Counted from the first letter of the stretch, positions 1-16,161 are shown. The stretch is 27,279 bases of DNA from a virus (IMGVR_UViG_3300017613_002316:1-27279); one strand, 5' to 3'. Notes: generated by a model from the sequence alone, not told the origin. Program-made: numbers and translations.

Positions 1-420
1 ATATAAATTTTTCAATGCATCAAATTTGAAACGGCAATCTTCACCATTAATTTTTTCATAAATCTCAGGGTGATACCGGCCGCCATCAAATGATATTGAA
101 ATACCATAAGGAAGAACTTTCTTGAGTTCTTTCGCATAACTAAAATCAGCTAACTTTTTACCATTTGTTATCAAACTTACCATATGTTTGTGTTTATGAA
201 TTGTTTCAATAATTTCAAACAAATCTTCATTGAGAGTAGGCTCTCCACCTAACAAACGGAAAATAACAGTTTTCGGTAATTTTCTACATACTTCATCAAT
301 ATATTCAACCGTAATATCTGGCAAATTTCGATTAACAGCATAACAAATATTACAATTCATGTTACATCTGTGAGTAAGATCAATATAAAGCTGCCTAAAT
401 GTATTATCTTCTATCTTCAT
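1..420 (-). CDS. Radical SAM protein, N-terminal part (cut by window edge)
   Basis: The first 140 residues are in the window and the frame is open to the left edge. The cluster motif CX3CX2C is at C19, C23 and C26, in the context THRCNMNCNIC, which is the site where radical SAM enzymes bind a [4Fe-4S] cluster and S-adenosylmethionine. GGEP at residues 58-61 is the usual SAM-contacting motif after the second strand, and ITNG near 84-87 and SFDG near 110-113 match the following strands of the partial TIM barrel. The GGEP and SFDG motifs place it with the SPASM/anaerobic-maturase-like branch, but the C-terminus that would show auxiliary clusters is outside the window. Its ATG overlaps the stop of the upstream gene as ATGA, so the two are probably translationally coupled. 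The substrate is unknown. Confidence 0.88.
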   Translation of the reverse strand, partial: MKIEDNTFRQLYIDLTHRCNMNCNICYAVNRNLPDITVEYIDEVCRKLPKTVIFRLLGGEPTLNEDLFEIIETIHKHKHMVSLITNGKKLADFSYAKELKKVLPYGISISFDGGRYHPEIYEKINGEDCRFKFDALKNLY

Positions 421-1853
421 GTCAAAAGTTTCCTTATGTAATCTTCTTTGAGATTTCTTTTCCTCTTTTTTATCTCATCTGTATAGTTTCGATGATCCAT
501 TGACCACGTTTCATCTGCTATGAAACCCAAATTCCGTAACCGATTATAATAGGTATGGCCTATATGTATATGGTCGTATTTTAGTTCTTCACATACTCTT
601 GCGGCTTTTTTGAATGTCATGTCAGATGTTTCTGATACCCAATATCCATCAGACAATAAAGTATATCCCCATTTTCCTGGATTCATTGTCAATGGTGCTT
701 CTCTTTTTATAGAATCTCTAACAGGAATATACAAAGGTCTAATTGTTACAACATCAAATGGAGATTTCTCACCTTTACAGTATTTATACCATTTTTTAAT
801 ATCATCCTCATTATCATACGGTAAACCGGCTATAAAACAAGCAGATATATGAATTTTTCCACTCCAGATTTTTCTTAGATTGTTCAGTGTTTCAAGTTGT
901 ATATCAGGATGAGGACCCTTTTTGATATATTTAAGAGTTTTAGGTGTTAAACTTTCAACTCCGAATGCTAAACCTTCGGCACCAGCATCTAACATCATAT
1001 GACCTGTCTCTGGATTGTCAATAAATCCTTTCAATCTTGCAAATGTAACAAACTTTATTTTGAATGATAATTTAGAAAACATATTACACACATCTACTGT
1101 TTTCTTCAAAGTAGAGTTAAATGTTGAATCTGTCAACATATAGTTTTTGATACCATATAATTCATAATTTCTTGTAACTTCATCCTTCAATGTGTCAATC
1201 GACTTTACATTAGGATTATATCGTATATGTTTATGCTTACAAAACGCACAATGAAAAGGACAACCTCTTTCTATCTCTAACGGTAAATGCTCATCTTGAA
1301 ATAAATTATCTTCGGGTTGCCAACACATAGGGACTTTATGAAAATCAACCGGTAACATTGAAGAACAATCAATAACATTACAAAATATTTTCATATTTCT
1401 TTTAATTTGATAATTTACCAATTTTTTTATAACATATTCTGCTTCATCTAAAACCCAATAATCTATTTTTGGATATTCTCTTCTGGTATTTTCTGTATTT
1501 ATACCACCATAAATATATTTCAAATTCGGATTTTTCTTATCAAGGATTTTAAAGAAAATGTTCATAAAATCATCTGATCTTGGAAAATATTTCGATGGTT
1601 TTCCAAATAACGTATCAAGATATGGGTCCATTGAACAAAAATGTGTAGAGGAAAAACCAACAAAGAGTGTATTACCATCAATAAATTTATCAGCGATATT
1701 CTGAATATCATTTTTAGTCAAATATTCAAAGAATTCAACCACCTGAATTTTAAGACCTATTTTTCTCAAAGCATTTGCAATAATATAAGGCCCATAATTA
1801 CGTCCGAACCCAATCATCTTATTATCTGTGGAGAATATTATACCATCAACCAT
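417..1853 (-). CDS. Radical SAM protein with B12-binding-like N-terminal domain
   Basis: This 478-residue protein has two parts. Residues 1-145 look like a Rossmann-type domain resembling the cobalamin-binding domain of BchE-type radical SAM enzymes. They carry a glycine-rich start (MIGFGRNYGP, 13-22), VGFSS (65-69) and YGGIN (115-119), followed by DYWVLDEAE. No DxHxxG cobalamin-ligand motif is obvious, so B12 binding is uncertain. Residues 190-400 are the radical SAM barrel with CX3CX2C at C198, C202 and C205 (RGCPFHCAFCKHKH). The conserved E of the glycine-rich strand region lies in FGVESL. Length fits this class. It overlaps the upstream gene by 8 bp and the downstream one by 4 bp. Members of this class perform methylations, rearrangements or ring chemistry; the substrate here cannot be told. 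Confidence 0.87.
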   Translation of the reverse strand: MVDGIIFSTDNKMIGFGRNYGPYIIANALRKIGLKIQVVEFFEYLTKNDIQNIADKFIDGNTLFVGFSSTHFCSMDPYLDTLFGKPSKYFPRSDDFMNIFFKILDKKNPNLKYIYGGINTENTRREYPKIDYWVLDEAEYVIKKLVNYQIKRNMKIFCNVIDCSSMLPVDFHKVPMCWQPEDNLFQDEHLPLEIERGCPFHCAFCKHKHIRYNPNVKSIDTLKDEVTRNYELYGIKNYMLTDSTFNSTLKKTVDVCNMFSKLSFKIKFVTFARLKGFIDNPETGHMMLDAGAEGLAFGVESLTPKTLKYIKKGPHPDIQLETLNNLRKIWSGKIHISACFIAGLPYDNEDDIKKWYKYCKGEKSPFDVVTIRPLYIPVRDSIKREAPLTMNPGKWGYTLLSDGYWVSETSDMTFKKAARVCEELKYDHIHIGHTYYNRLRNLGFIADETWSMDHRNYTDEIKKRKRNLKEDYIRKLLT

Positions 1854-2391
1854 CTATTTCCATCCATTCTTCAATCGTTTTATCCTTGAATTTTTCATCA
1901 AGATATAACCCGCAAATATATTGTTTTCTGCCGCAAATATTATATTTCTCCGGTAAAATAACAAAACCTTTATTCCATTGTTTTATATGCCTGTGCATTG
2001 CCTTCTTATACTCATTTTGTGTAGTAATACAAATTTTGAATCCTTGTTCACGGCACCATTCTATCTGTTGTTTCAATATTTTTTTCCAATGCACCAATTT
2101 ATTCCTATATTCTCTAAGAACAAACAACCTTTTTGAAATTATCGCAACATCCTCATTATATTTTTCAATACCAGCTAATCCAATAATTTCTCCATTATCA
2201 AAAGCTAAAAACAACGGGTCAATTTTCTTCTGTTTATAGACACAATTAAGTAAAGATTCAGGATTATCCTTCCATGTTATTGAATCCATATTCAATCTTG
2301 TTTGGGAATTCCTGCAATCATTCATTGCTTTTCTGCAAAAAAACTTTATTGCATAAAAATATTCATCAAGTTCTTTTTGTCTTATTACCAT
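1846..2391 (-). CDS. GNAT-like N-acetyltransferase
   Basis: The 181-residue protein fits the GNAT fold. FLAFDNGEIIGLAGIEKY (61-78) looks like the β2-β4 hairpin. SKRLFVLREYRNKLVHWKKI (86-105) looks like strand β4 followed by the acetyl-CoA pyrophosphate loop and helix α3, although the loop is degenerate (REYRNK instead of R/QxxGxG/A). CITTQNE (121-127) matches strand β5. Members transfer acyl groups from acyl-CoA to amino groups, and in surface-glycan loci they commonly acylate amino sugars. It lies between the B12-type radical SAM gene (8 bp overlap) and the sulfotransferase-like gene (7 bp overlap). No clear Shine-Dalgarno site precedes the ATG, so it probably relies on coupling to the upstream gene. 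The weak acetyl-CoA loop leaves catalytic activity unproven. Confidence 0.6.
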   Translation of the reverse strand: MVIRQKELDEYFYAIKFFCRKAMNDCRNSQTRLNMDSITWKDNPESLLNCVYKQKKIDPLFLAFDNGEIIGLAGIEKYNEDVAIISKRLFVLREYRNKLVHWKKILKQQIEWCREQGFKICITTQNEYKKAMHRHIKQWNKGFVILPEKYNICGRKQYICGLYLDEKFKDKTIEEWMEIDG

Positions 2392-2921
2392 ATCGTATTC
2401 AACTTTTTAATTTCTATATTTTTGTCTTTCAAACCAAGAAAGTCCAATATCGGTTCCTTTTTTATTTTTGTTTGTAAAACTTTATCCGCAAATGATTTTA
2501 TATATCTCATGTTATCTTGAAATTTATCTTTTTTGGTTCTATTCAAAATATTTTTAATATCAATATCACTATAACCTTCCTTATTTTTCAGATAAAAATT
2601 TATAAGAGATTTCCTGTGTTCTTCTTTATTCCGTAAAAGATATATAAAATAAATTTCAGTAAAATATTCTTTTATTTCTTTTAAAACATATCCAAATTCC
2701 CGCATATATAAAAATGGTGTTCCATCAAGATAGAATTTATAATTTCTTGGCACGTCAAAGTATGAATCCAAATCTGGGGTATCAATTTCATATGGTTCAT
2801 CAAAATTTTTGAGTTTGAACATCTCCTTCCGTGGCCAAGTGTAAATTTCCTCGTATTCTTTCAAAAATGTCCAAAGAGAAGTTGTTCCTGTTCTCGGAGG
2901 CCCTATATTCAACCATATCAT
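2385..2921 (-). CDS. Sulfotransferase-like protein (PAPS-binding motif)
   Basis: The 178-residue protein begins with IGPPRTGTTSL (6-16). This is the 5'-phosphosulfate-binding loop (consensus PRSGTTxL) by which sulfotransferases hold 3'-phosphoadenosine-5'-phosphosulfate. FYLDGTPFLY (63-72) matches the conserved E/DxTPxY region. LLRNKEEHRKSLINFY (95-110) matches the 3'-phosphate-binding motif, with R97 and S105 as the expected contacts. At 178 residues it is shorter than usual family members of about 250-300, but it has a clean ATG that overlaps the preceding stop as ATGA, and its own TAA. The likely role is sulfation of a sugar or other hydroxyl made by the neighbouring glycan genes, which is inference from context. 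A kinase-like P-loop reading is less likely because both sulfotransferase motifs are present and correctly spaced. Confidence 0.8.
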   Translation of the reverse strand: MIWLNIGPPRTGTTSLWTFLKEYEEIYTWPRKEMFKLKNFDEPYEIDTPDLDSYFDVPRNYKFYLDGTPFLYMREFGYVLKEIKEYFTEIYFIYLLRNKEEHRKSLINFYLKNKEGYSDIDIKNILNRTKKDKFQDNMRYIKSFADKVLQTKIKKEPILDFLGLKDKNIEIKKLNTIW

Positions 2922-3628
2922 TTTTTACCTATCAGTAACCATCTGTGCCAATTTTTTGATAGTGATTTCACACCTGTTGTCCATACTTCTGATAATGCTG
3001 CTTTATTTATAAGCTCATCTAACGAATAAACATTATCTACATGTGTATCCCATTCCATATCTGAGGATTGTAATGCCACTATTTTACCATCCGGTATAAG
3101 TTTTGTCCACTTCTCAAGATAAATATGTTCACAACTGGTATTAATAATAAAATCTTGAGATATCTTGTCATAATTAATTTCAAACATATCCTGTGTTTCT
3201 GCATTACAACCAAACATTTCTGCTATCAATGTGCAATCTGGATCAATATCTGTTGTCAAAGCAGTATATTTGAAATACGCATAATTAGATAACATCAAAT
3301 AAAGAACACCATGCCAACCACCTACTATCAAAATATCAGGTTCGTATTTCAATCTAAGTTTATTCATACTCTGGATCAACCATTTTTTTGATTCTATTTG
3401 TCCTACCTGAAATGAATCAAAATTTTGATCTGGGAATAATAACATAGCATCCAAAACTGTCCTAAAATCAACAAACCTTCCATAATTTACTATATCCTCA
3501 AATGCTTTTTTGAGGTGTAGATTACAGTGATTTTTATATATTCTCGTAAATTCGGATAATGTAATATCGGCTTTACAATAATCCACTAATTTTTCAAATA
3601 TTATCCCTTTTTTTTCTACTGGTATCAT
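2918..3628 (-). CDS. Class I SAM-dependent methyltransferase-like protein
   Basis: The 236-residue protein has a helical N-terminal region (1-95) followed by a Rossmann-type methyltransferase core. DILIVGGWHGVLY (98-110) is the glycine-rich SAM-binding loop. TTDIDPD (125-131) supplies the acidic residue that normally holds the ribose. DMFEI (147-151) and FIINTSCEHI (160-169) correspond to the later strands. The C-terminal part (QSSDMEWDTHVDNVYSLDEL) matches the lid region seen in phage-encoded methyltransferases of this type. The target is not evident; small molecules or sugars are favoured over DNA because no DPPY-type motif is present. It ends 4 bp inside the sulfotransferase-like gene and starts 6 bp after the radical SAM gene upstream. 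The Shine-Dalgarno site is weak (GGTGA). Confidence 0.72.
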   Translation of the reverse strand: MIPVEKKGIIFEKLVDYCKADITLSEFTRIYKNHCNLHLKKAFEDIVNYGRFVDFRTVLDAMLLFPDQNFDSFQVGQIESKKWLIQSMNKLRLKYEPDILIVGGWHGVLYLMLSNYAYFKYTALTTDIDPDCTLIAEMFGCNAETQDMFEINYDKISQDFIINTSCEHIYLEKWTKLIPDGKIVALQSSDMEWDTHVDNVYSLDELINKAALSEVWTTGVKSLSKNWHRWLLIGKK

Positions 3629-3634
3629 TAGAAA

Positions 3635-4489
3635 TCACCAATTTTTGTGTGTGCAATCATCACATAAATTTTCTGTTATTTTGTCCCAAATATTTGGTCT
3701 TTTTGAACGGTTGAATGCCCAATAAATATTTTCTTTGAATTCTTTGAATGTATTATATGGTTTTATTATACCATTTATTCTTTCAGGGTATAAAGATTTA
3801 ACAAAATTACGGATCGATGAATGACAACATATATATAATTTGGCGTCTATACCCATACCTGCTTCTCCACTATCAATAAAACATCCCGCATTTTTCAGTT
3901 TTCCTGGTTTGGTTGGTTTTTCCAATAAATCCGAATACTCTCTTGACCCTATAATATGTGCATAATTCAATTTCAAACTTTTGCTGAATTCTTCAATTTC
4001 AGGTATTTGATGTTGATTATGCCTGAAAACAATAAACTGCATATTGGCGGTTCCACCAGAAGAAATAAATGTATTGATGTTTTTTATAACTTTATCAAAC
4101 GATGTTCCTCTATATTTTACGTGTGTTTCAGAATCAAGTCCGTCTATCCCAAAAAATACTTCATCATCATCATTACATATAATAGCAAATTTACTCCACC
4201 ATTTCTGCGTATGTGGTTCTCCATTTGTAAACATAACAAACCTGGCTCCTATACTATGTATGATATCTATCAAACGAAACAGATTTGGATGAAATATAGG
4301 ATCACCGAAACTACCACATAATAAAACCTTTTCAACATCAGCATTTTGCCAATCAAGCGACTCAAATTTATCTAAATCAAGATATAATTTTGGAATTTCA
4401 ACCTTCCCGGGGTATTTGTTTCTAATACATAGAGAACATTTAGCTTGACAAACTGTTGTCACTTCAACATTTACACTTTGAACTTTCAT
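3635..4489 (-). CDS. Radical SAM protein, 'CGxFGD' type
   Basis: This 284-residue protein carries CX3CX2C at C14, C18 and C21 (TTVCQAKCSLC). Instead of the usual GGEP it has CGSFGDP (58-64). FFGIDGLDSETHVKYRG (112-128) and FIVFRHNQHQI (152-162) follow. The same three blocks occur in the protein at 6292-7302, so the two are paralogues. C-terminal cysteines C203, C221, C222, C276 and C279 (LCDDC) could bind an auxiliary iron-sulfur cluster, as SPASM or twitch domains do. The reaction is unknown. Its ATG overlaps the upstream glycosyltransferase-like stop as ATGA, so it belongs to the same coupled decoration operon. Membership of the superfamily is secure; the function is not. Confidence 0.88.
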   Translation of the reverse strand: MKVQSVNVEVTTVCQAKCSLCIRNKYPGKVEIPKLYLDLDKFESLDWQNADVEKVLLCGSFGDPIFHPNLFRLIDIIHSIGARFVMFTNGEPHTQKWWSKFAIICNDDDEVFFGIDGLDSETHVKYRGTSFDKVIKNINTFISSGGTANMQFIVFRHNQHQIPEIEEFSKSLKLNYAHIIGSREYSDLLEKPTKPGKLKNAGCFIDSGEAGMGIDAKLYICCHSSIRNFVKSLYPERINGIIKPYNTFKEFKENIYWAFNRSKRPNIWDKITENLCDDCTHKNW

Positions 4490-5460
4490 CTGAAATCCTC
4501 TATAATATCAAAAATTTTATCATCTTTAGTCATTACAAGGCTATCAAAATCGTTCAGGCAGTCTTTCCATCTCCAGTAACCACCATCTTTGAGCTTACCA
4601 AAATCGTGATAAATTATTTTCTTATCAAACCATACACATTCCGGTAAAAGACGTGGAGATGGGTCCATATCCTTATCACCATACTCAGCCCACATACCAC
4701 GAATGGATGGTAAATAAAGCAAAGTATCAAATTTATACATGTAATCTTCAATAGGTGTTTTTAAAACATCCACATTATCACTCTCAAGGATTTTATATTT
4801 ATCATACCATCTGTCTTTTGTTGTTATCGTATAATGTTCAAATTTATACTTAGTCATGAAATTTTTCAAATCTTCAACAGGATAACATTTGTGATCCGTC
4901 ACCATATTCAGCATACAAGAATGTCTTACTTCTTTGTCTAACTGTTTCATGATATCAAAATACAATGACCTTCGATATTTTACATGTGGATAATCTCTGT
5001 ATGTTTCAAATACCCTATCATCATATAACATCAATACATTTTTTCGTTTTGTTTCAAATGCTTTTGTGAATTTATGCTCTGGTGGCAATTCCCATATTGT
5101 TATAACCTTTTTCCTGGGAAGAAAAATATCATAATAATACATTTGAGATGCAGAAGACATTGAAGGCGCAAATATAATGTTTGAGAAAATCTTTATTATC
5201 TTATTTGATCTTATGTAATCATTTTTATAAAATACATAGATATCCCTTTTCAATGATTCAATATCAACATCATACTTATCAGTTATTGCAAAATAAACAA
5301 CATCTGAAGGGACAATTGACATTATCATGAAGCAAACATCATACCCTTTTTCTTTAAACAAATGAAAATATTCAAAACTATCATAAAAAGAACCAGAACA
5401 AAGGTAATTAGCATCAAAATATATACATATATCATACTTTCTAATTTTTTTCATTCCCAT
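4486..5460 (-). CDS. Putative glycosyltransferase (GT-B-like), paralogue 1
   Basis: The 324-residue protein is not a textbook glycosyltransferase, but its C-terminal half is built like the donor-binding domain of GT-B enzymes. KFDTLLYLPS (243-252) is followed by DPSPRLLPECVWFDKKIIY (266-284), where the glutamate sits as the conserved acidic residue of retaining GT-B enzymes does, and then by KDGGYWRWKDC. The protein at 8219-9031 repeats this block closely (DPHPRLFHEC, then KDGSFYRF), so the two are paralogues. The N-terminus (ICIYFDANYLCSGSFYDSFEYF) resembles an acceptor-domain start. The gene overlaps its neighbours by 10 and 4 bp. A second ATG at 5454 would give a tighter ATGA overlap, and neither start has a good Shine-Dalgarno site. 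The donor sugar cannot be deduced; UDP-xylose is a candidate because of the nearby UXS-like gene. Confidence 0.6.
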   Translation of the reverse strand: MGMKKIRKYDICIYFDANYLCSGSFYDSFEYFHLFKEKGYDVCFMIMSIVPSDVVYFAITDKYDVDIESLKRDIYVFYKNDYIRSNKIIKIFSNIIFAPSMSSASQMYYYDIFLPRKKVITIWELPPEHKFTKAFETKRKNVLMLYDDRVFETYRDYPHVKYRRSLYFDIMKQLDKEVRHSCMLNMVTDHKCYPVEDLKNFMTKYKFEHYTITTKDRWYDKYKILESDNVDVLKTPIEDYMYKFDTLLYLPSIRGMWAEYGDKDMDPSPRLLPECVWFDKKIIYHDFGKLKDGGYWRWKDCLNDFDSLVMTKDDKIFDIIEDFR

Positions 5461-6323
5461 GGTTTATATGTATAATCCTCACACATCATCATTCTAACTA
5501 TTTCTTTATCACCCTTGCCATAATGATTCCAGTAATCTTTCAAACCATCATTCACATCATTAGGATGATCAACATAATGAACCTTTTTACCCATAATCAA
5601 AAATTCAAATATACTTCGGCCAAATTGTTCAAATTTGCTTCTGTCTGCTCTACGATAATAAATATACCCAGAATAATCAAACATCTTTTTAAGAGCATCA
5701 CCTTTCAGCCTGTCAACTACTCGTACAAGTTGATTACTTTGATTATAATAATCAACAATTGCGTCCGGCTCATTATCATCTCTTTCGCCCCTGAAGAACC
5801 ACTTTTGGTTATCACTAAAGGGAACTGTCAATAACGCCTGGATATTGATTTTCTTATAAAAGATAGTTGCCGGTATATATGGATATTTTATCTCAAATTT
5901 CTCATAGTTCACTTTTGGCATCAAAAACAGAATTTCGGAGAAGTGATGTTTATCCAATATTCTATTCAAATCACCAATGTCTTTCTTATAAAAGAAGTTA
6001 GTGATTCCATTCAAATGATAACTCAGCTCGGCATTATCAAAAACTATCAATTTTTTACATACAATCGGTTCAGCTTTTATCAATGAAACAAAATCTGTTA
6101 CAACATTTTTTCTTCGATGAACAATTACTTCATCTATTTCTTTTATTTTTCCTGTTTTATATCTTCTCAAAGAATTTTTAATGATGTCTTGTAAGTACCA
6201 TTTATTATAACAATTGAATACCACATCATAATCGTTACGAATCAAATAATCCTGAAAATCTAATAGGTTTATCGGAGAACCACTAATTCCTTTATGTTTT
6301 GAGACAATTGCTATTTTCTTCAA
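5451..6323 (-). CDS. Putative glycosyltransferase (GT-B-like), paralogue 2
   Basis: I place the start at TTG 6323, not at the upstream ATG 6365. TTG is preceded by GTGGAGGG with a 6-base gap to the GGAGG core, the best ribosome site in reach, and the resulting N-terminus (MKKIAIVSKHKGISGSPIN) matches that of the paralogue at 8219-9031 (MKNVVLFYIYKPLEITGSTIN). The protein then has 290 residues. ISGSPINLLDF (13-23) corresponds to the acceptor-side loop of GT-B enzymes. RSIFEFLIMGKKVHYVD (236-252) is the donor-side helix with a conserved glutamate at 240, as in the EX7E region. It overlaps the upstream radical SAM gene by 32 bp. The likely role is transfer of a sugar onto a phage or host surface molecule, inferred from motif and context. 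Confidence 0.6.
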   Translation of the reverse strand: MKKIAIVSKHKGISGSPINLLDFQDYLIRNDYDVVFNCYNKWYLQDIIKNSLRRYKTGKIKEIDEVIVHRRKNVVTDFVSLIKAEPIVCKKLIVFDNAELSYHLNGITNFFYKKDIGDLNRILDKHHFSEILFLMPKVNYEKFEIKYPYIPATIFYKKINIQALLTVPFSDNQKWFFRGERDDNEPDAIVDYYNQSNQLVRVVDRLKGDALKKMFDYSGYIYYRRADRSKFEQFGRSIFEFLIMGKKVHYVDHPNDVNDGLKDYWNHYGKGDKEIVRMMMCEDYTYKPWE

Positions 6324-7302
6324 AATAACCCTCCACTTGTTTTGTCCCACCATACCAGATTTCATCTTTCCAATCTGTTTTACACATCTTGTTACAAAAT
6401 TTTAATCTTTTATAATTATTCCATATGAATTCAAAGAATGGACTTTTCAAACATTCTTCCAAAGAAGATGTATATAAGTTTTGATGTTTTCTATATTTAT
6501 GATAATTCAATATCAAATCTCTATCACCTTGCCATAAAGTTTCTAATTTTCTTCCTTCGATATATTTCCGTGGGTCCATATATCCACAAGGCATAACAGT
6601 ACCATCAGAACAAATATACACTGACTTTCTTTTTATCAATTCATTGCACGTTATTTCTTGCTTGTCAGGCATTTCAGTTCTCGTTTGTACCGGTATTATT
6701 GTGGGTCTTTCATAAACATCATCATATATTCTTGATGTTTTGATTTTGAATACAACGCAACCAATTTCTTTTGCTATTTTTTCTGCTTCATATATTTGAT
6801 GCTCATTGTGTTTGAAAAGGATAAACTGCCAAAATGCACGTCCTCCGGCATCTATAAACGCTTTCATATTACGCATTGCAGGACCCCACTTGATGTTTTT
6901 ACGATAAATTTCATGTGTATCCTCAAGACCATCAAATGAAAAAATTACATGACTTCTCTTAGAAAAAGATAGAAGTTCCGCAACCTTTTTCCAATATTCT
7001 GGTTTATGACCAATACCTGTAGTTGCAACTTGAAACAATAATTTCTCATTTTCACTTTTTCTAATATGTTCTAAAACATCAAGAAAACGCCGATAGAAAA
7101 CATTATCTCCAAAATTGCCACATATTGTAAGTGTATGTATTTGTCTCAAAAAATCTATTGTTAGATTTCTCGTCAATACATCATAATCTAAATTTGCTCG
7201 TGATGGTACTCTCCAAAGATATCTTGCACAATATGGGCATCTTCCATTACATACAGATGTGAGTTCTAAATCTATTCTTCTGATTTCGTCAATATTCCAC
7301 AT
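6292..7302 (-). CDS. Radical SAM protein with SPASM-like C-terminus, 'CGxFGD' type
   Basis: The 336-residue protein binds the radical SAM cluster through C18, C22 and C25 (TSVCNGRCPYC). It shares CGNFGD (61-66), FSFDGLEDTHEIYRK (121-135) and FILFKHNEHQI (160-170) with the protein at 3635-4489, so the two are paralogues, about 50 residues different in length. The C-terminus adds a fuller set of cysteines: C219, then C231 and C239 in the hairpin CSDGTVMPC typical of SPASM domains, then C303 and C307. An auxiliary [4Fe-4S] cluster is therefore likely. The ATG is preceded by GGAG at an 11-base distance, and the gene starts inside the last codons of the UXS-like gene (31 bp overlap). The substrate is unknown. 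The context suggests a sugar- or peptide-modifying enzyme, but nothing in the sequence proves it. Confidence 0.88.
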   Translation of the reverse strand: MWNIDEIRRIDLELTSVCNGRCPYCARYLWRVPSRANLDYDVLTRNLTIDFLRQIHTLTICGNFGDNVFYRRFLDVLEHIRKSENEKLLFQVATTGIGHKPEYWKKVAELLSFSKRSHVIFSFDGLEDTHEIYRKNIKWGPAMRNMKAFIDAGGRAFWQFILFKHNEHQIYEAEKIAKEIGCVVFKIKTSRIYDDVYERPTIIPVQTRTEMPDKQEITCNELIKRKSVYICSDGTVMPCGYMDPRKYIEGRKLETLWQGDRDLILNYHKYRKHQNLYTSSLEECLKSPFFEFIWNNYKRLKFCNKMCKTDWKDEIWYGGTKQVEGYFEENSNCLKT

Positions 7303-8222
7303 TTATCATAATACTCCACTGTTTCTTTCAATCCATCAATCAAATCAACCCGTGGTGTCCACAATAACAACCGTTGAGCCTGTGATATATCAGGGCATCT
7401 TTGATTAGGTTCATCCTTTGAACGCTTCTTTTCATATACAATTTGAGCATCTTCATCTTCCATTATTTTCAATATTTCTTCTGCCAAATCAAAAATACTC
7501 ACATTGCCTGATGGGTCGCCTATATTTATAGGTGTTGTGACATTACTCTCCATCAATTTTATAAGACCATCAACACAATCATCAACATAACAGAATGCAC
7601 GTTCTTGATAACCATCACCGTAAATCGTAATCGGCCTGTTCAAGATAAAATTAGGCACAACACGACCATCATCTTCTGACATCCGTGGGCCATATACATT
7701 GAACAATCTGGCTATCCTGATATCAACATTGAACTGACGCTTGAAGCTCATAAACAACGATTCTGCTGCTCGTTTGCTCTCCACATAACAAGCCCGTGGA
7801 CCCAGATTATCTACATTTTCACCAAAGTATGTTTCTTTGATGGGTGTTCTAATGCTACCATATACCTCTGATGAAGATGTAAACAATATCCTGGCCTCAT
7901 ACTTCTGTGCCAACTCTAACATATTGAATGAACCATAAATAGATGTTTTCATTGTCTGCACCGGATCATTTTGATAATGTACCGGTGAAGCTGGACAAGC
8001 TAAGTGATATATTCTATCAAATTTACCTGCCAGTATCAAAAATGGTGAGCAAATGTCATGCTCTATAAATTCAAACCTAAAATTCGCCAAGCATTTTGTT
8101 AGATTATTCATGGTACTATTGAACATATTATCAATACACACAACATTATGTCCCTGTTCCAAAAGCCTTTCACATAATGGGGCACCAATTAGACCGGCAC
8201 CGCCTGTTACCATAATTTTCAT
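7272..8222 (-). CDS. uxs: UDP-glucuronate decarboxylase (UDP-xylose synthase) homologue
   Basis: This 316-residue extended short-chain dehydrogenase has the NAD-binding GGAGLIG loop (7-13) and an aspartate at 31 for the ribose. HLACPASPVHYQ (73-84) is a block highly characteristic of UDP-glucuronate decarboxylases. TSSSEVYG (115-122) and GPRACYVESKR (141-151) follow, with the catalytic YxxxK at Y146 and K150. ARLFNVYGPRM (171-181), DGRVVPNFI and YGDGYQERAF (201-210) complete the pattern. The enzyme oxidises UDP-glucuronate at C4, decarboxylates it and reduces the product to UDP-xylose. Length and motif order are complete, so it should be active. A perfect AAGGAGG site 5 bases before the ATG implies strong translation. 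It would feed a pentose donor to the three adjacent glycosyltransferase-like proteins. A related UDP-sugar epimerase activity is the main alternative. Confidence 0.9.
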   Translation of the reverse strand: MKIMVTGGAGLIGAPLCERLLEQGHNVVCIDNMFNSTMNNLTKCLANFRFEFIEHDICSPFLILAGKFDRIYHLACPASPVHYQNDPVQTMKTSIYGSFNMLELAQKYEARILFTSSSEVYGSIRTPIKETYFGENVDNLGPRACYVESKRAAESLFMSFKRQFNVDIRIARLFNVYGPRMSEDDGRVVPNFILNRPITIYGDGYQERAFCYVDDCVDGLIKLMESNVTTPINIGDPSGNVSIFDLAEEILKIMEDEDAQIVYEKKRSKDEPNQRCPDISQAQRLLLWTPRVDLIDGLKETVEYYDKCGILTKSEE

Positions 8223-9042: not shown

Positions 9043-9621
9043 CTATTCAAAAATTTGAACAAACACTTTGAATCTTTCATCTATATCATCAACGCTGTTG
9101 AGTTTATGTAGATCGCTTTCAAAAGTTCTATACTGATTGTACCACCCAGATATGCTTTCAAGTTTATCCTTACTGTTCAATAACCTTTCTAACAAATCAA
9201 TGGTTTCAATATCACCTGCATCAATGATATCAAGATATTTGTGTCGCCTATTTTTATTTGTGATAACGAACCCCTTTTCAATAAGGTCTAAATTACAAAC
9301 CAAAAACTCATAAAGTTCAAACAATGAAACAGCATTCAACCGTGTTGATATATATTCCCTGCCTTTGTTTAATATTCGCTCTCTATGACTTGTTATAGGA
9401 TCATAGTCAACTATAATCAAATCTTCTTTGATTGGTTTTCCCGCAATGTCTTTGGGATACTGAATTTGTGCTGCATGAAGTTTATTTTTGACAAAAATAA
9501 ACAATGCTTTATCAACTTCGGCCACCATTTCGGGATCAACCACATAATCATCTGGCTGAATTGTGGTATCAGTGATTTCCCATACACTTCCTTTATCTTG
9601 AATTATCAATATATTTTTCAT
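9043..9621 (-). CDS. Hypothetical protein, unknown function
   Basis: I do not recognise this 192-residue protein. The start is well supported by GAGG 7 bases before the ATG. It begins MKNILIIQDKGSVWEI, like a Rossmann or receiver-type first strand, and its next strand-like stretches are ALFIFVKN (39-46) and DLIIVDYDP (67-75). The second half is largely helical and charged, with helices around YISTRLNAVSLFELYEFLV and ETIDLLERLLNSKDKL. There is no signal peptide, transmembrane segment or metal motif. It lies between the split S74 chaperone gene and the first glycosyltransferase-like gene, at the junction of the fibre and decoration blocks. It could be a chaperone or a divergent nucleotide-sugar protein, but nothing decisive is visible. 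Confidence 0.6.
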   Translation of the reverse strand: MKNILIIQDKGSVWEITDTTIQPDDYVVDPEMVAEVDKALFIFVKNKLHAAQIQYPKDIAGKPIKEDLIIVDYDPITSHRERILNKGREYISTRLNAVSLFELYEFLVCNLDLIEKGFVITNKNRRHKYLDIIDAGDIETIDLLERLLNSKDKLESISGWYNQYRTFESDLHKLNSVDDIDERFKVFVQIFE

Positions 9622-9636: not shown

Positions 9637-9948
9637 CTATTTCGGATAGTTACTTTTATGTATTTCTGAAATACAATTCTTATATAATCTGGCGTTTTCC
9701 TGTTCCAGTTTATCAACCTTTTCTTCCAATTCTTGAATAGATTTTATCAATGGGCCGATGAACTCATTTGTGTTTATGGCATAGAAACCATTTCTCATTA
9801 CCACAAAAGCATATTTTTCTTTGTCGGCAACTTCGTTTACATCTTGTGCTACAAGTCCAACATGCTCTTTACCGTCAGACAATGGACCGGATTTATATCT
9901 CCAGGTGCATATCTTCAACTTTTTGATGAACTCTAAACCAAAATCCAT
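9637..9948 (-). CDS. S74-type intramolecular chaperone, C-terminal part as a separate gene
   Basis: The 103 residues are the main body of a peptidase S74/endosialidase-type chaperone domain. FGLEFIKKLKICTWRYK (3-19) and HVGLVAQDVNEV (29-40) are hallmark blocks, followed by FYAINTNEFIGPLIKSI (56-71) and a terminal coiled coil (ELEEKVDKLEQENARL, 73-88). Such domains fold and trimerise tail fibres or spikes and are then released by self-cleavage. The conserved first motif SDRRLK, which carries the cleavage-site serine, is missing here and instead ends the preceding gene in the same reading frame. Only a TAA stop and four codons separate the two. The ATG has a strong Shine-Dalgarno match that overlaps the stop (TAAGGAG, 8 bases from the ATG). 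It is therefore probably made as a separate, trans-acting chaperone. Confidence 0.88.
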   Translation of the reverse strand: MDFGLEFIKKLKICTWRYKSGPLSDGKEHVGLVAQDVNEVADKEKYAFVVMRNGFYAINTNEFIGPLIKSIQELEEKVDKLEQENARLYKNCISEIHKSNYPK

Positions 9949-9963
9949 AACAAATTCTCCTTA
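9949..9963 (-). promoter_or_regulatory. Stop codon overlapping a Shine-Dalgarno site inside a split S74 domain
   Basis: On the minus strand the TAA ending the Cys-rich gene runs directly into GGAG, giving TAAGGAG, a full match to the anti-Shine-Dalgarno sequence of 16S rRNA. Eight bases later comes the ATG of the chaperone gene, in the same frame as the gene before it. The segment both stops one reading and restarts the next, so it decides that the S74 domain is made as two chains, or as a fusion if TAA is read through. Confidence 0.75.
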
Positions 9964-10518
9964 CAAATATTTTATATCGGTTTTCAATCGCCTATCTGAA
10001 TAATTACAGTTACAAGTACACGCATAATTACAGTTACATGTGCAATAATTACAGTTACAAGTACATGCATAATTACAATCGCAAAGACACTCGGTTCTTA
10101 ATATATTCACTTGATCACGCATTTCGTTTATTGTATTAACTAAAATCGGTGCCCCTGCTGACATATATTGAGTGGTTGACCATGTTGGCGACCACGCATC
10201 ACATTCATCAAGACCTTCCACAAACATTGTCCAATCAGAAGAATATATAATATCTTCTGTGGTTTTGGGTCCTGCCTCTGCATACCACGCATCCCAGCCG
10301 GATGGTTTTGATGCACCACGTCTGCCTATCTCATAATTTATATACCACGCTAAATAATAGTAATGATAGTTTTCTTCAACAGGATCATCTGTATTTATTG
10401 TATGACCATTACAATAACCCTGTGCTGCACTATATGAACTTCGCCACGAAACCGGGCTCAATGGTGGGTCATATCCTGGATGTGATGGGCAAGAATTTGA
10501 ATGTCCTCCGCAAGCCAT
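9961..10518 (-). CDS. Cys-rich tail fibre/appendage protein ending in the S74 start motif
   Basis: The 185-residue protein starts from an ATG with AGGAGG 9 bases upstream. Residues 1-140 are rich in W, Y and G, with IGRRGASKP near 64-72 and ILVNTINEMRDQVNILRTEC (125-144), a helical stretch like those before fibre trimerisation regions. Residues 144-173 hold 12 cysteines in tandem CxCxCNY units. The last residues, SDRRLKTDIKYL (174-185), are the first motif of an S74 chaperone, where S174 corresponds to the self-cleavage serine. The rest of that domain is the next gene in the same frame. The protein is most likely a fibre or appendage tip. The cysteines could bind metal or be crosslinked; the two SPASM radical SAM enzymes encoded just upstream make enzymatic modification conceivable, but this is inference. 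Confidence 0.8.
   Translation of the reverse strand: MACGGHSNSCPSHPGYDPPLSPVSWRSSYSAAQGYCNGHTINTDDPVEENYHYYYLAWYINYEIGRRGASKPSGWDAWYAEAGPKTTEDIIYSSDWTMFVEGLDECDAWSPTWSTTQYMSAGAPILVNTINEMRDQVNILRTECLCDCNYACTCNCNYCTCNCNYACTCNCNYSDRRLKTDIKYL
10000..10092 (-). repeat. In-gene tandem repeat encoding CxCxCNY units
   Basis: Four imperfect copies of 24, 21, 24 and 24 bases lie head to tail, each starting ATAATTACA on the plus strand (at 10000, 10024, 10045 and 10069). All lengths are multiples of three, so copy-number change keeps the frame. The first three copies are nearly identical and the fourth has diverged. They encode residues 143-173 of the Cys-rich protein, three cysteines per unit. The pattern suggests growth by slippage or unequal recombination under selection for the protein repeat. 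Confidence 0.9.
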
Positions 10519-10521
10519 TTA

Positions 10522-11685
10522 TCAAGTCCTCCTAAGTAAATCTAATCCTTTCTTTACCATATCATTGATATGATAAAACTTGCAAAGATTAGGTTGATTT
10601 GTATAATCTCGCCACTTATCTAAATATTTTTCCTTTTTGCTACGTTCATATTTGGCATGATTACATCTTAGACAAAACTCAACATCACAATCATGACACC
10701 AGCCTTCATCATCAATATCCTTACCAAAATATTTACTTGCCTTTTCAAGTTCTTCAATTATACTATCATTATTTATATTTCCGATAAGATGTTTTTCCTT
10801 ACCGTCACCATATAGGCAACCGTGGCAAGTGTAAATCTGTTCATCTGTATCAACCGCAACCATGTGTTGCCCGGAGACACATATGGCACGGTTAGGTATA
10901 AACCATTTGAAAAAAGTTAGATATTGAGGCAAGTCTGCTGATTTTATCTTCACCAAAGAGTTAATATATGGTGTTTTTAATTCTTCTGCTGCTATCTTCA
11001 CCAAAGACACTTCTAATGCCTCACAATATTGAAGCATTTCATCTTTACTATATCGTTCTGATGAATAATAATCAATGGTAGGGAAGTAATTTACATTCTT
11101 ATAGAAACCGGTTGATGTAAGCTCACTGGCTAACCTTTTTATATCCATATAGGCATCATACATGTGTTTGAATGCTTCTGCCCTGATCGTTGACTTGATA
11201 ACATATGGTATCCTGTTTACATCTAACCATTTTATACTTTCAATAACTTCCTTTGAAGTCAACTTACCGGAAGCACGTCTATACATATCATGAATAGGCG
11301 CACCATCATAGGAAATCTGGATACATACTTTTGGATGCACACCAACCATTTCATCTTTATAAGCAATCAATGCCTCTTTCAAATAACCATGTAAATCATA
11401 TCCATTACTGAATATGAAAAATCTTATGGGCTGAAAACAATTTAGTTCATCTATGAGATTTACAATTTCTGCTGCTTTGATTGTCGGCTCACCGCCCCAA
11501 AAATTTATACATAACAAATCATAATTATCTTTGAAAAAAGATGAATCCAATAACTTATCTATAAATTTCTTGAAGTTATCATATTCGGTGAACTCTTTCT
11601 TACCTTTTGCATCAGTAAAGCAATAAGAACATTGAAACTGACACTCTCTTGTAACATTCAAATCAACATGGTATTCTCTATCCAT
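10522..11685 (-). CDS. Radical SAM/SPASM-like enzyme (anaerobic maturase-like)
   Basis: The 387-residue protein has CX3CX2C at C15, C19 and C22 (TRECQFQCSYCF) and WGGEPTIK (63-70) for SAM binding. IFSNGYDL (91-98) and QISYDGAP (123-130) are the following barrel strands. The C-terminus resembles a SPASM domain: C269, C287 and C290 around the hairpin VAVDTDEQIYTCHGC, then C330, C333, C338, C341 (CHDCDVEFCLRC) and a late C368. The canonical CX9-15GX4C glycine is replaced by glutamate and the second half reads CX2CX4CX2C, so it is a variant with probably two auxiliary clusters. Relatives include sulfatase-maturing enzymes and peptide thioether or C-C crosslinking maturases. GAGAGG lies before the ATG. 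It sits directly upstream of the Cys-rich fibre gene, and the TTAGGAGG of that gene lies within this gene's end. Confidence 0.9.
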   Translation of the reverse strand: MDREYHVDLNVTRECQFQCSYCFTDAKGKKEFTEYDNFKKFIDKLLDSSFFKDNYDLLCINFWGGEPTIKAAEIVNLIDELNCFQPIRFFIFSNGYDLHGYLKEALIAYKDEMVGVHPKVCIQISYDGAPIHDMYRRASGKLTSKEVIESIKWLDVNRIPYVIKSTIRAEAFKHMYDAYMDIKRLASELTSTGFYKNVNYFPTIDYYSSERYSKDEMLQYCEALEVSLVKIAAEELKTPYINSLVKIKSADLPQYLTFFKWFIPNRAICVSGQHMVAVDTDEQIYTCHGCLYGDGKEKHLIGNINNDSIIEELEKASKYFGKDIDDEGWCHDCDVEFCLRCNHAKYERSKKEKYLDKWRDYTNQPNLCKFYHINDMVKKGLDLLRRT

Positions 11686-11983
11686 TGATTTCCTCTCTTA
11701 TTTTCTCTGCCATTGCTTCAACTTCTTCTGACACATTTGAATCATGAATTGTCTGCGGTGAATGCATACTTCCCGCATCCTCTGGAATAAACAAGTCAGC
11801 TATAAGCCCTTTTGCTATTATCAAACAAACATTACTTGCCATAATGTCAACCTCTTTCAAATCCATTGAAATATTGAACAGACTTTGAGCGCACCTGTGC
11901 CTTATGAGTTTTTCCTGATCGCTGGTTCCTGCTTCACATTCACATTCAATTTTACTTGCCATTACTTCGATTCCTTCTGTCAT
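11678..11983 (-). CDS. Small protein between two radical SAM/SPASM genes, unknown function
   Basis: I do not recognise this 101-residue acidic, mostly helical protein. It has four cysteines: C14 and C16 as CEC, C31 and C53. Two short look-alike segments occur, EVMASK (6-11) and DIMASN (46-51). The C-terminus SEEVEAMAEKIREEING is a charged helix. The start is sound, with AAGGAG 6 bases before the ATG. It overlaps the upstream SPASM gene by 4 bp (ATGA) and the downstream one by 8 bp, so the three are tightly coupled. Such placement is typical of either a maturase substrate or an accessory binding partner. No classical leader/core split, repeat core or RiPP recognition element can be seen, so neither role is established. 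Confidence 0.72.
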   Translation of the reverse strand: MTEGIEVMASKIECECEAGTSDQEKLIRHRCAQSLFNISMDLKEVDIMASNVCLIIAKGLIADLFIPEDAGSMHSPQTIHDSNVSEEVEAMAEKIREEING

Positions 11984-13086
11984 GGTAATCTCCTTATTAA
12001 ATTGTTCATAATTTTTTTGAAGGTTGGATCATCCTTCAATTCTTCCACTATTCTAAACGCCTGTTCATAAGACGCTAAATACAATTCACAAATGCTTTTC
12101 AATGGGCCACCATTTTTGTTCAACTGTGAATAGGTACATCCAGCATTACAATACTTATATAACACACACTCTCTACATTCTTCAAATGTTCGTGGGTCTG
12201 TGAGATTTCTGTTATTGAGCTTGCTATGACCAGCAAAATTCCATTCAACCATAATATCTTCTGCAAAAGAATCAAATATTTCATCCTCTCCGGCTGAACC
12301 AAATCGGGCACACGGATATGCTTTACCATCTGGCATAAAACCCAAACCGTGAACCCCGGCGAAACATCCGAATGAGCGTTTGCTAAACCTTTCGGCTGCT
12401 AATGTATCTAAAATATTCAGGGCAAAAATACCTGGCATAGTCTCAATACCATCTTTGATATATTTAATAACCTGATCCGCAAGCTCTTTGATTTCAAATT
12501 GAAATACGGCAATTTCTAATGGCTCCCAAACATCATCTCTGACGAGTGTAAAATCAGGATTCATCATACCGAATTCTTCCACAAACCACTTGTAATTTCG
12601 TTTGATACTGATATCTCTGTGAGATTGTGGTGGTATCATTACCTTACATGTGTCCACACCCATATCTTTGACAATATTCATGTATCTGATTGTCTCACCG
12701 CCTTTTTGCATGGCACGTTCACCGAATTTATCCTCTTGCCATAATCCATCAAAGGATAATGAGATATTAACATTGTATTTTCTAAGTGTGTGGATCATCT
12801 CCTGTGTGATTTTCAGGCCATTGGTAGGCAGCGTGACACCTTGACATTTGGGGTCAGCATCAACTATTGGTAGGATATATTCTATGAGGCCCCAATTCAA
12901 AAGAGGCTCACCGCCGAACAAAGTTGTGGTGAACCTCTCCTCTCCATATGCATCCATAATTCTGGGCAAAGCAGCATAATGAGCATCGAAAACCTCTTTA
13001 GTCATATGCTTACTTTTGTTTATCATATAACAATATTCACAATGTAAGTTACATTTTTCTGTAACAACAACTTCAAATTGAAACAT
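11980..13086 (-). CDS. Radical SAM/SPASM maturase-like enzyme
   Basis: The 368-residue protein has CX3CX2C at C12, C16 and C19 (TEKCNLHCEYCY), FGGEPLL (57-63), LPTNG (86-90) and SFDG (111-114). Its SPASM domain is canonical. C241, G254 and C259 form CX12GX4C (hairpin MPDGKAYPC), and C304, C307, C313 and C317 form CX2CX5CX3C (CRECVLYKYCNAGC). C333 closes the set, so two auxiliary [4Fe-4S] clusters are expected. This architecture is known from anaerobic sulfatase-maturing enzymes and ribosomal-peptide maturases that modify cysteine, serine or other side chains in protein substrates. AAAGGAG 5 bases before the ATG gives strong initiation. It is a distant paralogue of the enzyme at 10522-11685. 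A protein substrate is expected from the family; which one is unknown. Confidence 0.92.
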   Translation of the reverse strand: MFQFEVVVTEKCNLHCEYCYMINKSKHMTKEVFDAHYAALPRIMDAYGEERFTTTLFGGEPLLNWGLIEYILPIVDADPKCQGVTLPTNGLKITQEMIHTLRKYNVNISLSFDGLWQEDKFGERAMQKGGETIRYMNIVKDMGVDTCKVMIPPQSHRDISIKRNYKWFVEEFGMMNPDFTLVRDDVWEPLEIAVFQFEIKELADQVIKYIKDGIETMPGIFALNILDTLAAERFSKRSFGCFAGVHGLGFMPDGKAYPCARFGSAGEDEIFDSFAEDIMVEWNFAGHSKLNNRNLTDPRTFEECRECVLYKYCNAGCTYSQLNKNGGPLKSICELYLASYEQAFRIVEELKDDPTFKKIMNNLIRRLP

Positions 13087-13097: not shown

Positions 13098-13778
13098 TTA
13101 TTTGATTATACAATCAACAAGTTTTTCGTATGGTGACGGATTAGTTTCAAGCGCAACCGCTACCTTGTAAATAAGTTCTTCATGGTTATCTGCCTTGCCA
13201 CAACCATTTGTAGTTGCAACAATAATATCTCTTTTGTTGACAGGGCCAATGATCCTGATAGGCACACGGCCAACGAGGCCAACCAACTGACCTTCTGCAT
13301 TTTGATTCATTACAAACCCTGGTTTTTCAGACACAACACCAACAAAACAATCAGTCAAACCTGATGTCTTTGTCAAATCAAATTCTTCCTCATAAGCTAC
13401 TTCAAGAATTGTGCCAATTGGAAATTCTTCTCTTGTTGTGTATTTTTCTGCCAGGTCTGCATATGTAGCTGTTGTAACTGTACCTGTAAATGTTGTTCCA
13501 GTAATTTCCAGCCATTTATAACTGCCACTGCCAAGACTATGTGTATCATCTGTCCCTGGAAGAAAATTACCTGCTATGCTTTGATTGGTGTTATTCAACA
13601 GAAAGGTTGAAGCATCTCCGTAAGCCGCTTCTTCCCAATCAGAACTTTTTCCAATATGAATTTTATAAGTATCTTGAGCATATATTATCCGACCTTCATC
13701 TCCTGTGGCCCATACCGGTTTCGTTGATAATTTTTCAGCCCAAAATTTACCCTTCAGTTCTATTTCTTGATATTCCAT
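13098..13778 (-). CDS. Tail fibre-like protein with shared N-terminal docking module
   Basis: The 226-residue protein is modular. Residues 1-52 (GKFWAEK, then DEGRIIYAQDTYKIHIGKSSDWEE) match the N-termini of the three tip proteins at 14577-16161, so this segment is probably a common docking module. GTDDTHSLGSGSYKWLEITGTTFTGT (75-100) is the loop repeat common in phage fibres ahead of chaperone or tip domains. YADLAEKYTTREEFPIGTIL (106-125) and LVGLVGRVPIRIIGPVNKRDIIV (165-187) form a β-rich module frequent in structural proteins of T4-like phages. No catalytic residues are claimed. The ATG follows GAAGGAGG closely, and the gene overlaps the 13747-14103 gene by 32 bp. It is probably a fibre or connector subunit. 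Confidence 0.72.
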   Translation of the reverse strand: MEYQEIELKGKFWAEKLSTKPVWATGDEGRIIYAQDTYKIHIGKSSDWEEAAYGDASTFLLNNTNQSIAGNFLPGTDDTHSLGSGSYKWLEITGTTFTGTVTTATYADLAEKYTTREEFPIGTILEVAYEEEFDLTKTSGLTDCFVGVVSEKPGFVMNQNAEGQLVGLVGRVPIRIIGPVNKRDIIVATTNGCGKADNHEELIYKVAVALETNPSPYEKLVDCIIK

Positions 13779-14576: not shown

Positions 14577-15098
14577 CTACTGATACTCAGCAATACAATA
14601 TTTTATGTGATATGGTCTCCATGACCCACCCATAGAATGTTCATGTCCACCATCTGAACTAACTGTATGAATATGATTATATGTTGCTAAATCATAATAT
14701 CCTGAACTCCTATGATAGATATAAGAGGTGGGTGTTCCAACAGTATGTGAATGACTGCCGCTTTCACTCATACCAGAAATTACCCAATCACCCGTTACAT
14801 CACCAATTTTTGAATCATCATTTGTAAACAAAATTGCTTTATCAGTATGTGTTGTGTCTAAATTCCATCCAGTAGGCAAAGGGTATGATCCAAATAACGC
14901 TTTCGTATTTTGATCTAAAATATCATACGGTGTTGCAACATTAATCCATTGATTTGTAGTACCAATACATAATCGTTGATTGCTTTTAGAATATATCAAT
15001 CTTCCAATATCTGAAATATTATGGTCATATGTATCTTTGTCCGGTACAGAATGAACTTTAAATTTATTTTGGGAATTTATTGTATAAAATTTACTCAT
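14577..15098 (-). CDS. Receptor-binding tip protein with HxH motifs, paralogue 1
   Basis: The 173-residue protein has two parts. Residues 1-50 (GRLIYSKSNQRLCIGTTNQW) are the module shared with the fibre protein at 13098-13778. The rest is a collar/tip domain: ALFGSYPLPTGWNLD, WVISGMSESGSHSH, NHIHTV, GGHEHS and GGSWRPYHIKYCIAEYQ at the end. Three HxH motifs (HSH, HIH, HEH) are present. In the T4 long-fibre tip gp37, HxH motifs from three chains hold iron ions along the axis, so a metal-stabilised trimeric needle is the likely structure here. Its ATG overlaps the previous stop as TAATG, with AAGGAG 10 bases upstream. It is most similar to the next paralogue. Confidence 0.8.
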   Translation of the reverse strand: MSKFYTINSQNKFKVHSVPDKDTYDHNISDIGRLIYSKSNQRLCIGTTNQWINVATPYDILDQNTKALFGSYPLPTGWNLDTTHTDKAILFTNDDSKIGDVTGDWVISGMSESGSHSHTVGTPTSYIYHRSSGYYDLATYNHIHTVSSDGGHEHSMGGSWRPYHIKYCIAEYQ

Positions 15099-15625
15099 TA
15101 TTGAAGAACTCCTTCACAAAATTTTATATATTCTGGTCTCCAATTACCATCAAATGTATGGGTATGAATACCATCCGCCATAATAGAATGCCTGTGGTTC
15201 CATAGTGGTCTGTAAACCTTATGAGCATCATATTTTTTAAGAGATATTTTGACAGTTGCTCTATTTGTTCGACCACCATGATCATGTGCATTTGAATTAT
15301 TCATTTGTGAAATCACCCAAGTTCCTGATTCTGCTCCGATTGATCCACTACTATTTGTAATCAACACAACTTCATCATTTCTGTTTCCAATGTTCCATCC
15401 AATAGGTAGTGGATATGAACCAAATAACATTTTAGCACCTTGTTCCATAACTGAATATTCTATTGCCAAATCTCTCCATTCTGTGCTTGTTCCTATGTAA
15501 ACTTTATCATTTGATTTTGAATACACTAAACGACTTTCATCATCAGAAGTATGACCAATCAAATTGATATCATCTACTCTTTGAATCCAAATTTCACCTT
15601 GTCCGTTTATTTCATGAAAATCCAT
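15098..15625 (-). CDS. Receptor-binding tip protein with HxH motifs, paralogue 2
   Basis: The 175-residue protein has the same layout as its neighbours. SRLVYSKSNDKVYIGTSTEW (residues 31-50) belongs to the N-terminal docking module and MLFGSYPLPIGWNIG is the junction. The tip follows, with HDH, HRH and HTH, ending FDGNWRPEYIKFCEG. I use ATG 15625 rather than a TTG 51 bases upstream: AAGGA lies 5 bases before this ATG, the protein then aligns with its paralogues from residue 1, and the gene starts 2 bp after the upstream stop. The C-terminal half between the first and second HxH differs strongly from the other copies, as expected for a region that contacts host receptors. Confidence 0.8.
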   Translation of the reverse strand: MDFHEINGQGEIWIQRVDDINLIGHTSDDESRLVYSKSNDKVYIGTSTEWRDLAIEYSVMEQGAKMLFGSYPLPIGWNIGNRNDEVVLITNSSGSIGAESGTWVISQMNNSNAHDHGGRTNRATVKISLKKYDAHKVYRPLWNHRHSIMADGIHTHTFDGNWRPEYIKFCEGVLQ

Positions 15626-15627
15626 AT

Positions 15628-16161
15628 TTATCCTTGATAAACACCAACTGCTAATTTGACACTGCTGGGCCTCCAACTACCATCAAAAGTATGACTATGA
15701 TTTCCCGTATTAGTAAATGTGTGTTTATGGCTTTTGTTTGCCATTTTATTATCACCTGTCCTAACTTTGGCGTTGACATTTGTATCAGACAATCCTAATC
15801 CTGCTGTTGTAAAATGTTTATGATTACCAGCAGAAGAACCTCCTGTTATTATCCAAGAGCCACCAATATCACCTATTTGGTTTGAATAATCTGTTAGCAT
15901 AATAACTTTATCATCTACATCTTTTATATTCCACCCTGTAGGTAAAACGGATGCAAATATTAAATTCGTTCCAATACTAAATAAATCATCTATATCTGAT
16001 ATTTTTTGCCACTTTGATGAAGTACCATAATAAAAATGATTATTGTCCAAATCATATAATATTCTACCTTCATCATTTGCTGTCCATACAACATCAACAA
16101 TATCTGAAGTCCGTTGAGGCCAAAATTTACCTAATATATTAACTGTCCCGTAAATTTTCAA
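15628..16161 (-). CDS. Receptor-binding tip protein with HxH motifs, paralogue 3
   Basis: The 177-residue protein starts with TTG, preceded by GGAG at a 7-base gap. GKFWPQRTS and DEGRILYDLDNNHFYYGTS form the docking module, closest to the module of the 13098-13778 protein. LPTGWNIKDVDDKVIMLTD leads into the tip domain with HKH, HKH and HSH and the terminal FDGSWRPSSVKLAVGVYQ. It is the most divergent of the three at the C-terminus, which lacks the cysteine found before the end in the other two. The gene overlaps the 16139-16501 gene by 23 bp. Three copies in a row suggest either a hetero-assembled tip or alternative tips. Confidence 0.78.
   Translation of the reverse strand: MKIYGTVNILGKFWPQRTSDIVDVVWTANDEGRILYDLDNNHFYYGTSSKWQKISDIDDLFSIGTNLIFASVLPTGWNIKDVDDKVIMLTDYSNQIGDIGGSWIITGGSSAGNHKHFTTAGLGLSDTNVNAKVRTGDNKMANKSHKHTFTNTGNHSHTFDGSWRPSSVKLAVGVYQG

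Follow-up and report, generated by a model that had tools for sequence, protein, structure and literature searches.

Two radical SAM enzymes encoded beside a cysteine-repeat fibre protein: candidate thioether maturation of a phage tail fibre

Why would a virus place two radical S-adenosylmethionine (SAM) enzymes among its tail-fibre genes? The question is raised by the virus record IMGVR_UViG_3300017613_002316 (27,279 nucleotides, or 27.3 kb; this whole stretch is called the window hereafter), in which T4-like tail/baseplate-type genes, fibre genes, and genes of the radical SAM and sugar types follow one another on the minus strand. The gene for E1 (11980-13086), a radical SAM/SPASM enzyme of 368 amino acids (aa), overlaps by 4 bp the gene for a 101-aa protein (11678-11983), which overlaps by 8 bp the gene for E2 (10522-11685), a radical SAM enzyme of 387 aa; a gap of 3 bp follows before REP (9961-10518), a Cys-rich fibre protein of 185 aa. 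The initial annotation of this DNA had given these gene positions, overlaps of 4 to 8 bp, and four Cys residues in the 101-aa protein, all of which were borne out; the Cys are residues 14, 16, 31, and 53. Our proposal is that the Cys repeats in the phage's own tail fibre are matured by E1 and E2, which would join them through thioether cross-links. Judged from sequence, this full statement is probably correct, and it is very likely that the two enzymes act on REP at all.

Both enzymes exceeded the cut-off of the Pfam Radical_SAM model (E1, 6e-13; E2, 8e-8), and the CxxxCxxC motif of the superfamily is invariant in the alignments (C12/C16/C19 in E1 and C15/C19/C22 in E2). The Pfam SPASM model stayed below its cut-off in E1 (0.045) and E2 (0.032), while E1 passed the NCBIfam SPASM domain model TIGR04085 (1.1e-9; 38.6 bits versus a cut-off of 27). 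The canonical seven-Cys pattern of SPASM domains is CX9-15GX4C - CX2CX5CX3C - C, and E1 carries C241-X12-G254-X4-C259, C304-X2-C307-X5-C313-X3-C317, and C333, all invariant among 18 relatives. Thus, the SPASM assignment made for E1 in the initial annotation was upheld, as was the radical SAM nature of both enzymes. E2 also has seven invariant Cys in a C-terminal SPASM-like region, with loops shorter than canonical in the second block (CX2CX4CX2C), and the two enzymes are related to each other (hhalign, 99.7%).

Both are kin to thioether-forming maturases. The PapB ranthipeptide maturase (NF047865) was the best NCBIfam model in every lineage tested, i.e., the window, relatives from phage CP220, a second enzyme clade (L162), one further E1 (L139), and E3, a third radical SAM enzyme found in other cassettes; all of these scored far under the equivalog cut-off of the model. 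QhpD and SCIFF models also matched, and the best solved relative of both enzyme profiles was PDB 5wgg (E=2.7e-35 for E1), the structure of CteB, a thioether-forming SCIFF maturase. A viperin-like antiviral function was rejected (E1, 48.3 bits; E2, 42.1 bits; cut-off, 180), and a metabolic reading of E1 and E2 likewise failed on scores. E3 (270 to 300 aa; e.g., L074:11348-12241, L078:8598-9419, and L075:7660-8502) is absent from the window, but many cassettes have it after E1, with either E2 or REP on its other side.

REP, the neighbor of these enzymes, consists of N-terminal helical modules, in which E..RR is conserved, then Cys repeats, and a last stretch (SDRRLKTDIKYL) that opens an S74 domain. 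Its C terminus, SDRRLKTDI, fits the S74 start SDxRLK, and the remainder of the domain lies in the next open reading frame (ORF), which places REP among S74 fibres. The proposed cross-link region, read from the sequence, comprises four CxCxCNY units (CLCDCNY-A-CTCNCNY-CTCNCNY-A-CTCNCNY; 10000-10089, minus strand). The consensus of 196 units from 27 clusters is C-[T]-C-[N/D]-C-[N]-[Y/F] with a spacing of 7 or 8, its Cys positions being set by the pattern used in the search; Tyr (0.76) or Phe (0.16) fills the aromatic position, and Asn fills position 6 at 0.90. The residues between the repeat Cys, Thr and Asn/Asp, are reported thioether acceptors: those in SCIFF, NxxC, and freyrasin products include Thr, Asn, and Asp (PMC8326336), PapB joins Cys to Asp across 0 to 6 residues (PMC9413430), and Asp, Glu, Thr, and Asn are known acceptors of such bonds (PMC8326336; PMC9413430).

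The enzymes might instead act on REP by another chemistry, such as epimerization, a sactionine bond at an alpha-carbon, a Cys-Tyr link, or an aromatic C-C link. SPASM enzymes are chemically varied, each REP repeat holds a nearly invariant aromatic residue and Asn, and cyclophane and sactipeptide models also gave weak matches. However, the top model everywhere tested is a non-alpha thioether maturase, and closely spaced Cys define every repeat type; we consider a different bond unlikely.

Does the pairing of enzymes and Cys-rich fibre recur? IMG/VR (2.9 million contigs) was scanned with a degenerate DNA pattern that encodes two repeats, C[ND]CNYxCxC[ND]CNY, which matched 35 records; in 34 of them, PHROG 1802, to which both enzymes belong, was matched as well. 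This tally alone is weak, because PHROG 1802 was also matched in all 14 cellular control genomes. The virus matches were strong (most best matches exceeded 100 bits) and usually represented two adjacent full-length enzymes beside the fibre. Two cassette orders were found, E1 - small protein - (E3) - E2 - REP and E2 - E1 - small proteins/E3 - REP, and both nearly always end with a relative of a 192-aa protein that follows REP in the window.

Queries of IMG/VR with single enzyme sequences returned almost nothing, and alignments were needed; the alignment scans reported 251 and 147 relatives, of which the best 80 matches each were kept. Pooled with the earlier loci, they gave adjacent E1/E2 pairs at 142 loci, forming 44 clusters at 80% E2 identity. 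A Cys-rich gene (at least 8 Cys in 60 residues, same strand, within 5 kb) was present in 40 of the 44 clusters, compared with 29 of 1,200 background ORFs taken from the same data away from E1/E2 pairs. Counting L155 and L174, whose fibres have 7 Cys each, a Cys-rich fibre-like neighbor accompanies 42 of the 44 nonredundant pairs, and the contig of L128 ends before the fibre position. Besides, some loci with E2 only (L185, L193, L218, and L225) have a Cys-rich fibre. The arrangement lies far beyond chance, given its recurrence in dozens of diverged virus lineages, and the co-occurrence of enzymes and Cys-rich fibre across phages, proposed as a check in the initial annotation, was thus found.

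About 15 of the clusters hold diverged enzymes (E1 profile score below 300 bits) that were selected without any repeat. Most of their fibres keep the helical modules and the S74 end but carry CxCNxxC motifs (CICNSDCTCNAVCNCHRDCGCNY) rather than CxCxCNY/F. Fibres of this type fall into one clade on the E2 tree (support, 99/95), so that repeat type tracks enzyme clade. Joint evolution of enzyme and substrate would produce such a match, and so would linked inheritance. This joint change of enzyme clade and Cys spacing also speaks against the idea that the repeats bind an iron-sulfur cluster or another metal, with E1 and E2 as assembly factors or unrelated genes. CxC repeats do look like metal-binding sequences; metal loading, however, is not a known role of radical SAM/SPASM enzymes. 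We give this explanation little credence.

A further possibility is that the 101-aa protein is the real substrate, as a precursor like those of ribosomally synthesized and posttranslationally modified peptides (RiPPs), with REP a mere neighbor. It sits between the enzymes, its frame overlapping both of theirs, and the window's version contains four Cys. However, no Cys is invariant across its family, and the small proteins that separate E1 from E2 in the second clade (62 to 79 aa), which its core matches (hhalign, 84.9%; E=6.5e-6), have none or one, whereas the fibre Cys are always present. These unconserved Cys rule against the 101-aa protein as substrate, and we regard that role as highly improbable; judged by its family, it is best seen as a putative helical partner. 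The initial annotation had suggested a virion protein as the substrate and named both candidates along with a fibre tip: the Cys-rich fibre stands, given its presence beside the pairs, and the 101-aa protein, with variable Cys that the second clade almost lacks, does not. The small proteins of type B (LDFITSDLDDYEKFL family) were also tried as homologues of the 101-aa protein, but they gave no profile match to the second-clade small proteins (hhalign, 0.06%) and are only positional counterparts.

The sugar-type genes of the window suggest another role, namely, that E1 and E2 serve surface-sugar or small-molecule chemistry, like the glycosyltransferase-type and radical SAM genes downstream, and adjoin the fibre by hitchhiking. 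Epimerase, sulfotransferase-like, GNAT, and B12 radical SAM genes do lie downstream, and relatives of some recur. However, the sugar genes vary among the 43 other representative stretches (the epimerase occurs in 2, and the sulfotransferase-like and GNAT genes occur in none), whereas the Cys-rich fibre is constant, and the best models of the enzymes are peptide maturases; a sugar role is thus very doubtful. Enzyme homologues accompanied by sugar genes and lacking a candidate substrate, which the initial annotation had named as a refutation, were not the pattern seen, the fibre being there in nearly every pair and sugar-type genes often too.

Under the thioether proposal, REP would be made next to E1 and E2 from the overlapping operon, and each enzyme would use SAM and a [4Fe-4S] cluster to form a 5'-deoxyadenosyl radical. 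The radical would take a hydrogen from a side chain in the repeat C-T-C-N-C-N-Y, either Thr2, Asn/Asp4, or Asn6. The thioether bridge would then be closed by a repeat Cys bound to a SPASM auxiliary cluster, with a mass change of -2 Da per bridge. The 101-aa protein might help E1 and E2 to hold each other or the fibre, and the S74 chaperone would then aid fibre assembly and be released. The outcome would be a fibre segment, presumably displayed on the virion, that is held by nonreducible covalent bridges.

Cultured phages offer a separate view of the same genes. Among 50,697 phage records, close full-length relatives of E1, E2, and REP were confined to the same Firehammerviruses of Campylobacter: E1 gave 15 good matches in Campylobacter records and 17 weak ones in unannotated faecal phage fragments, and E2 and the CP220 repeat protein gave 15 each. 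The latter protein (CP220 160932-162536; YP_009169314) has 534 aa and six CTCDCNY-type units, and YP_009590717 is a homologue. In CP220, E2 and REP are 2.2 kb apart, but E1 stands beside a gene probably related to that of the 101-aa protein, at a distance from REP of about 33 kb by the shorter arc of the circular map, with unrelated genes between. The retention of all three genes despite this separation argues for a functional tie. We also noted that the Cys-repeat protein is annotated as a putative N-acetylneuraminate pyruvate lyase in two Campylobacter phages, HE815464.1 (74991-76592) and OP654737.1 (20183-21742), for which we saw no support.

In the cellular collection (84,980 species), the repeat pattern matched a single contig, L252 (JAEHCK010000156.1), from a Thermoplasmata metagenome-assembled genome. 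It has E1, E2, REP, and a 101-aa-like gene, together with the window's own upstream genes, and keeps the entire gene order of the window except that a transporter-like gene separates the 101-aa-like gene from E2. On the E2 tree, L252 is the sequence nearest to the window. L252 is probably a virus contig in an archaeal bin, and its host is possibly archaeal or a co-occurring bacterium.

Several points weigh against thioether cross-linking of REP by these enzymes. One repeat-bearing record (G006) has no such enzyme in its fragment; at L105, a real exception, E1 and E2 are followed by 5.5 kb with no such fibre; and L220 and L221, copies of one phage, have E2 alone and no Cys-rich fibre. The virus records are not independent of each other, and much of the pairing of enzyme and fibre could reflect physical linkage. 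E1 (112.4 bits) and E2 (61.7 bits) reach a third of the PapB equivalog cut-off (340 bits) or less. AlphaFold left the repeats unstructured, with a predicted local distance difference test (pLDDT) score below 50, and a fold search found nothing. The repeats could bind metal or form disulfides instead. Gel proteomics of CP220 identified 11 virion proteins, and a REP-type fibre was not shown to be among them (PMC2853527); for vB_CcoM-IBB_35, 38 virion proteins are listed (PMC3322345).

Compared with known systems, the cassette is closest to PapA/PapB of the freyrasin pathway, in that PapB is the best match over most of E1, E2, and E3 and the adjoining candidate substrate has repeated multi-Cys motifs. 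Besides the low scores, it differs in having two enzymes per cassette and, as the candidate substrate, an S74 fibre with no recognizable leader or precursor size, whose repeats have Asn or Asp at position 4 and lack the CX3D/E motif. The radical SAM core and SPASM region of CteB align with both enzymes, but only from about CteB residue 100, since E1 and E2 lack its N-terminal part, and the CteB substrate is a short peptide of about 45 residues. QhpD is a precedent for radical SAM Cys-Asp/Glu thioethers in a non-RiPP protein (quinohemoprotein amine dehydrogenase), and its model, TIGR03906, matches E1 (4e-18; 2.7e-26 in CP220), although far below the cut-off; its substrate is a bacterial enzyme subunit and not a virus particle. 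The nearest cultured counterparts are CP220, CPt10, and vB_CcoM-IBB_35, which possess E1, E2, and a CTCDCNY-repeat protein. Reports on these Firehammerviruses noted their many radical SAM genes and the 21-bp repeat gene of CP220, but read the former as metabolic and drew no link to the repeat protein (PMC2853527, PMC3322345).

We found no description of such a system in the literature searched, which is weak evidence, as subscription papers and preprints were mostly outside its coverage. To our knowledge, no earlier case exists of virus particle maturation by radical SAM chemistry, and, if the proposal holds, this would be the first virus known to mature its own particle in this way. On balance, we lean toward a more general view, in which a repetitive segment of the tail fibre, in many tailed phages of bacterial and perhaps archaeal hosts, receives nonreducible covalent cross-links from a dedicated two-enzyme radical SAM machine. 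This would be a RiPP-like particle maturation with a repeat and enzyme pair that coevolve. The proposal, if true, would help to explain the wealth of radical SAM genes in some phages (11 to 12 in the Campylobacter Firehammerviruses), where genome papers could offer only the metabolic reading. Furthermore, it yields a testable substrate, natural variation in repeat type that goes with enzyme clade, and cultured phages for virion mass spectrometry, and enzymes that stitch long repetitive proteins would be useful for stabilized protein fibres.

The S74 domain of the window is split between two genes. REP stops 12 residues into the domain, past the likely Ser/Lys pair in SDRRLK, and is followed by TAA, GGAG, and a new ATG; the remainder is a separate ORF (9637-9948, minus strand; Pfam Peptidase_S74, 1.2e-8, profile positions 16-55 of 58) that starts 12 bp past the REP stop with its own GGAG ribosome site. 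Because the same split occurs in L103 and L155 while the domain is fused in several other relatives (e.g., L080 and L162), it is not a sequencing error, and action in trans or reinitiation may be involved.

The 192-aa protein (9043-9621, minus strand) is conserved downstream of REP, with a homologue in 32 of the 43 other stretches and a position directly after REP in most cassettes. Its structural model is confident (pLDDT, 92.6), and it gave two weak viral matches, which themselves have no known function, and no relative in the PDB; it is possibly a fibre-assembly chaperone. Upstream of E1, a fibre-type protein with a Peptidase_G2 autoproteolytic domain (13098-13778, minus strand; PF11962, 8.4e-8) has a homologue in 30 of the 43 stretches. 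Farther upstream, at 14577-16161, three paralogous fibre-like proteins stand in tandem with His-rich C-terminal ends (HNHRHS/HSHTF...WRP).

The large downstream island (window 1-8222) contains several more radical SAM genes, one of the B12 type and one cut by the record end, along with the epimerase, sulfotransferase-like, GNAT, and glycosyltransferase-like genes, most of which do not accompany the cassette elsewhere. Very Cys-rich proteins with quite different repeat types (e.g., CDSDPCACDAADNCQTC and CSCNATCYGYVA) also adjoin virus radical SAM genes that are more distant, at L239:8521-9966, L240:496-894, L241:9396-9953, L245:708-1448, L248:7848-9071, and L249:7094-7921; the theme of enzyme and Cys-rich protein may thus be much wider, and in L239 the Cys-rich protein is joined to fibre-like helical modules.

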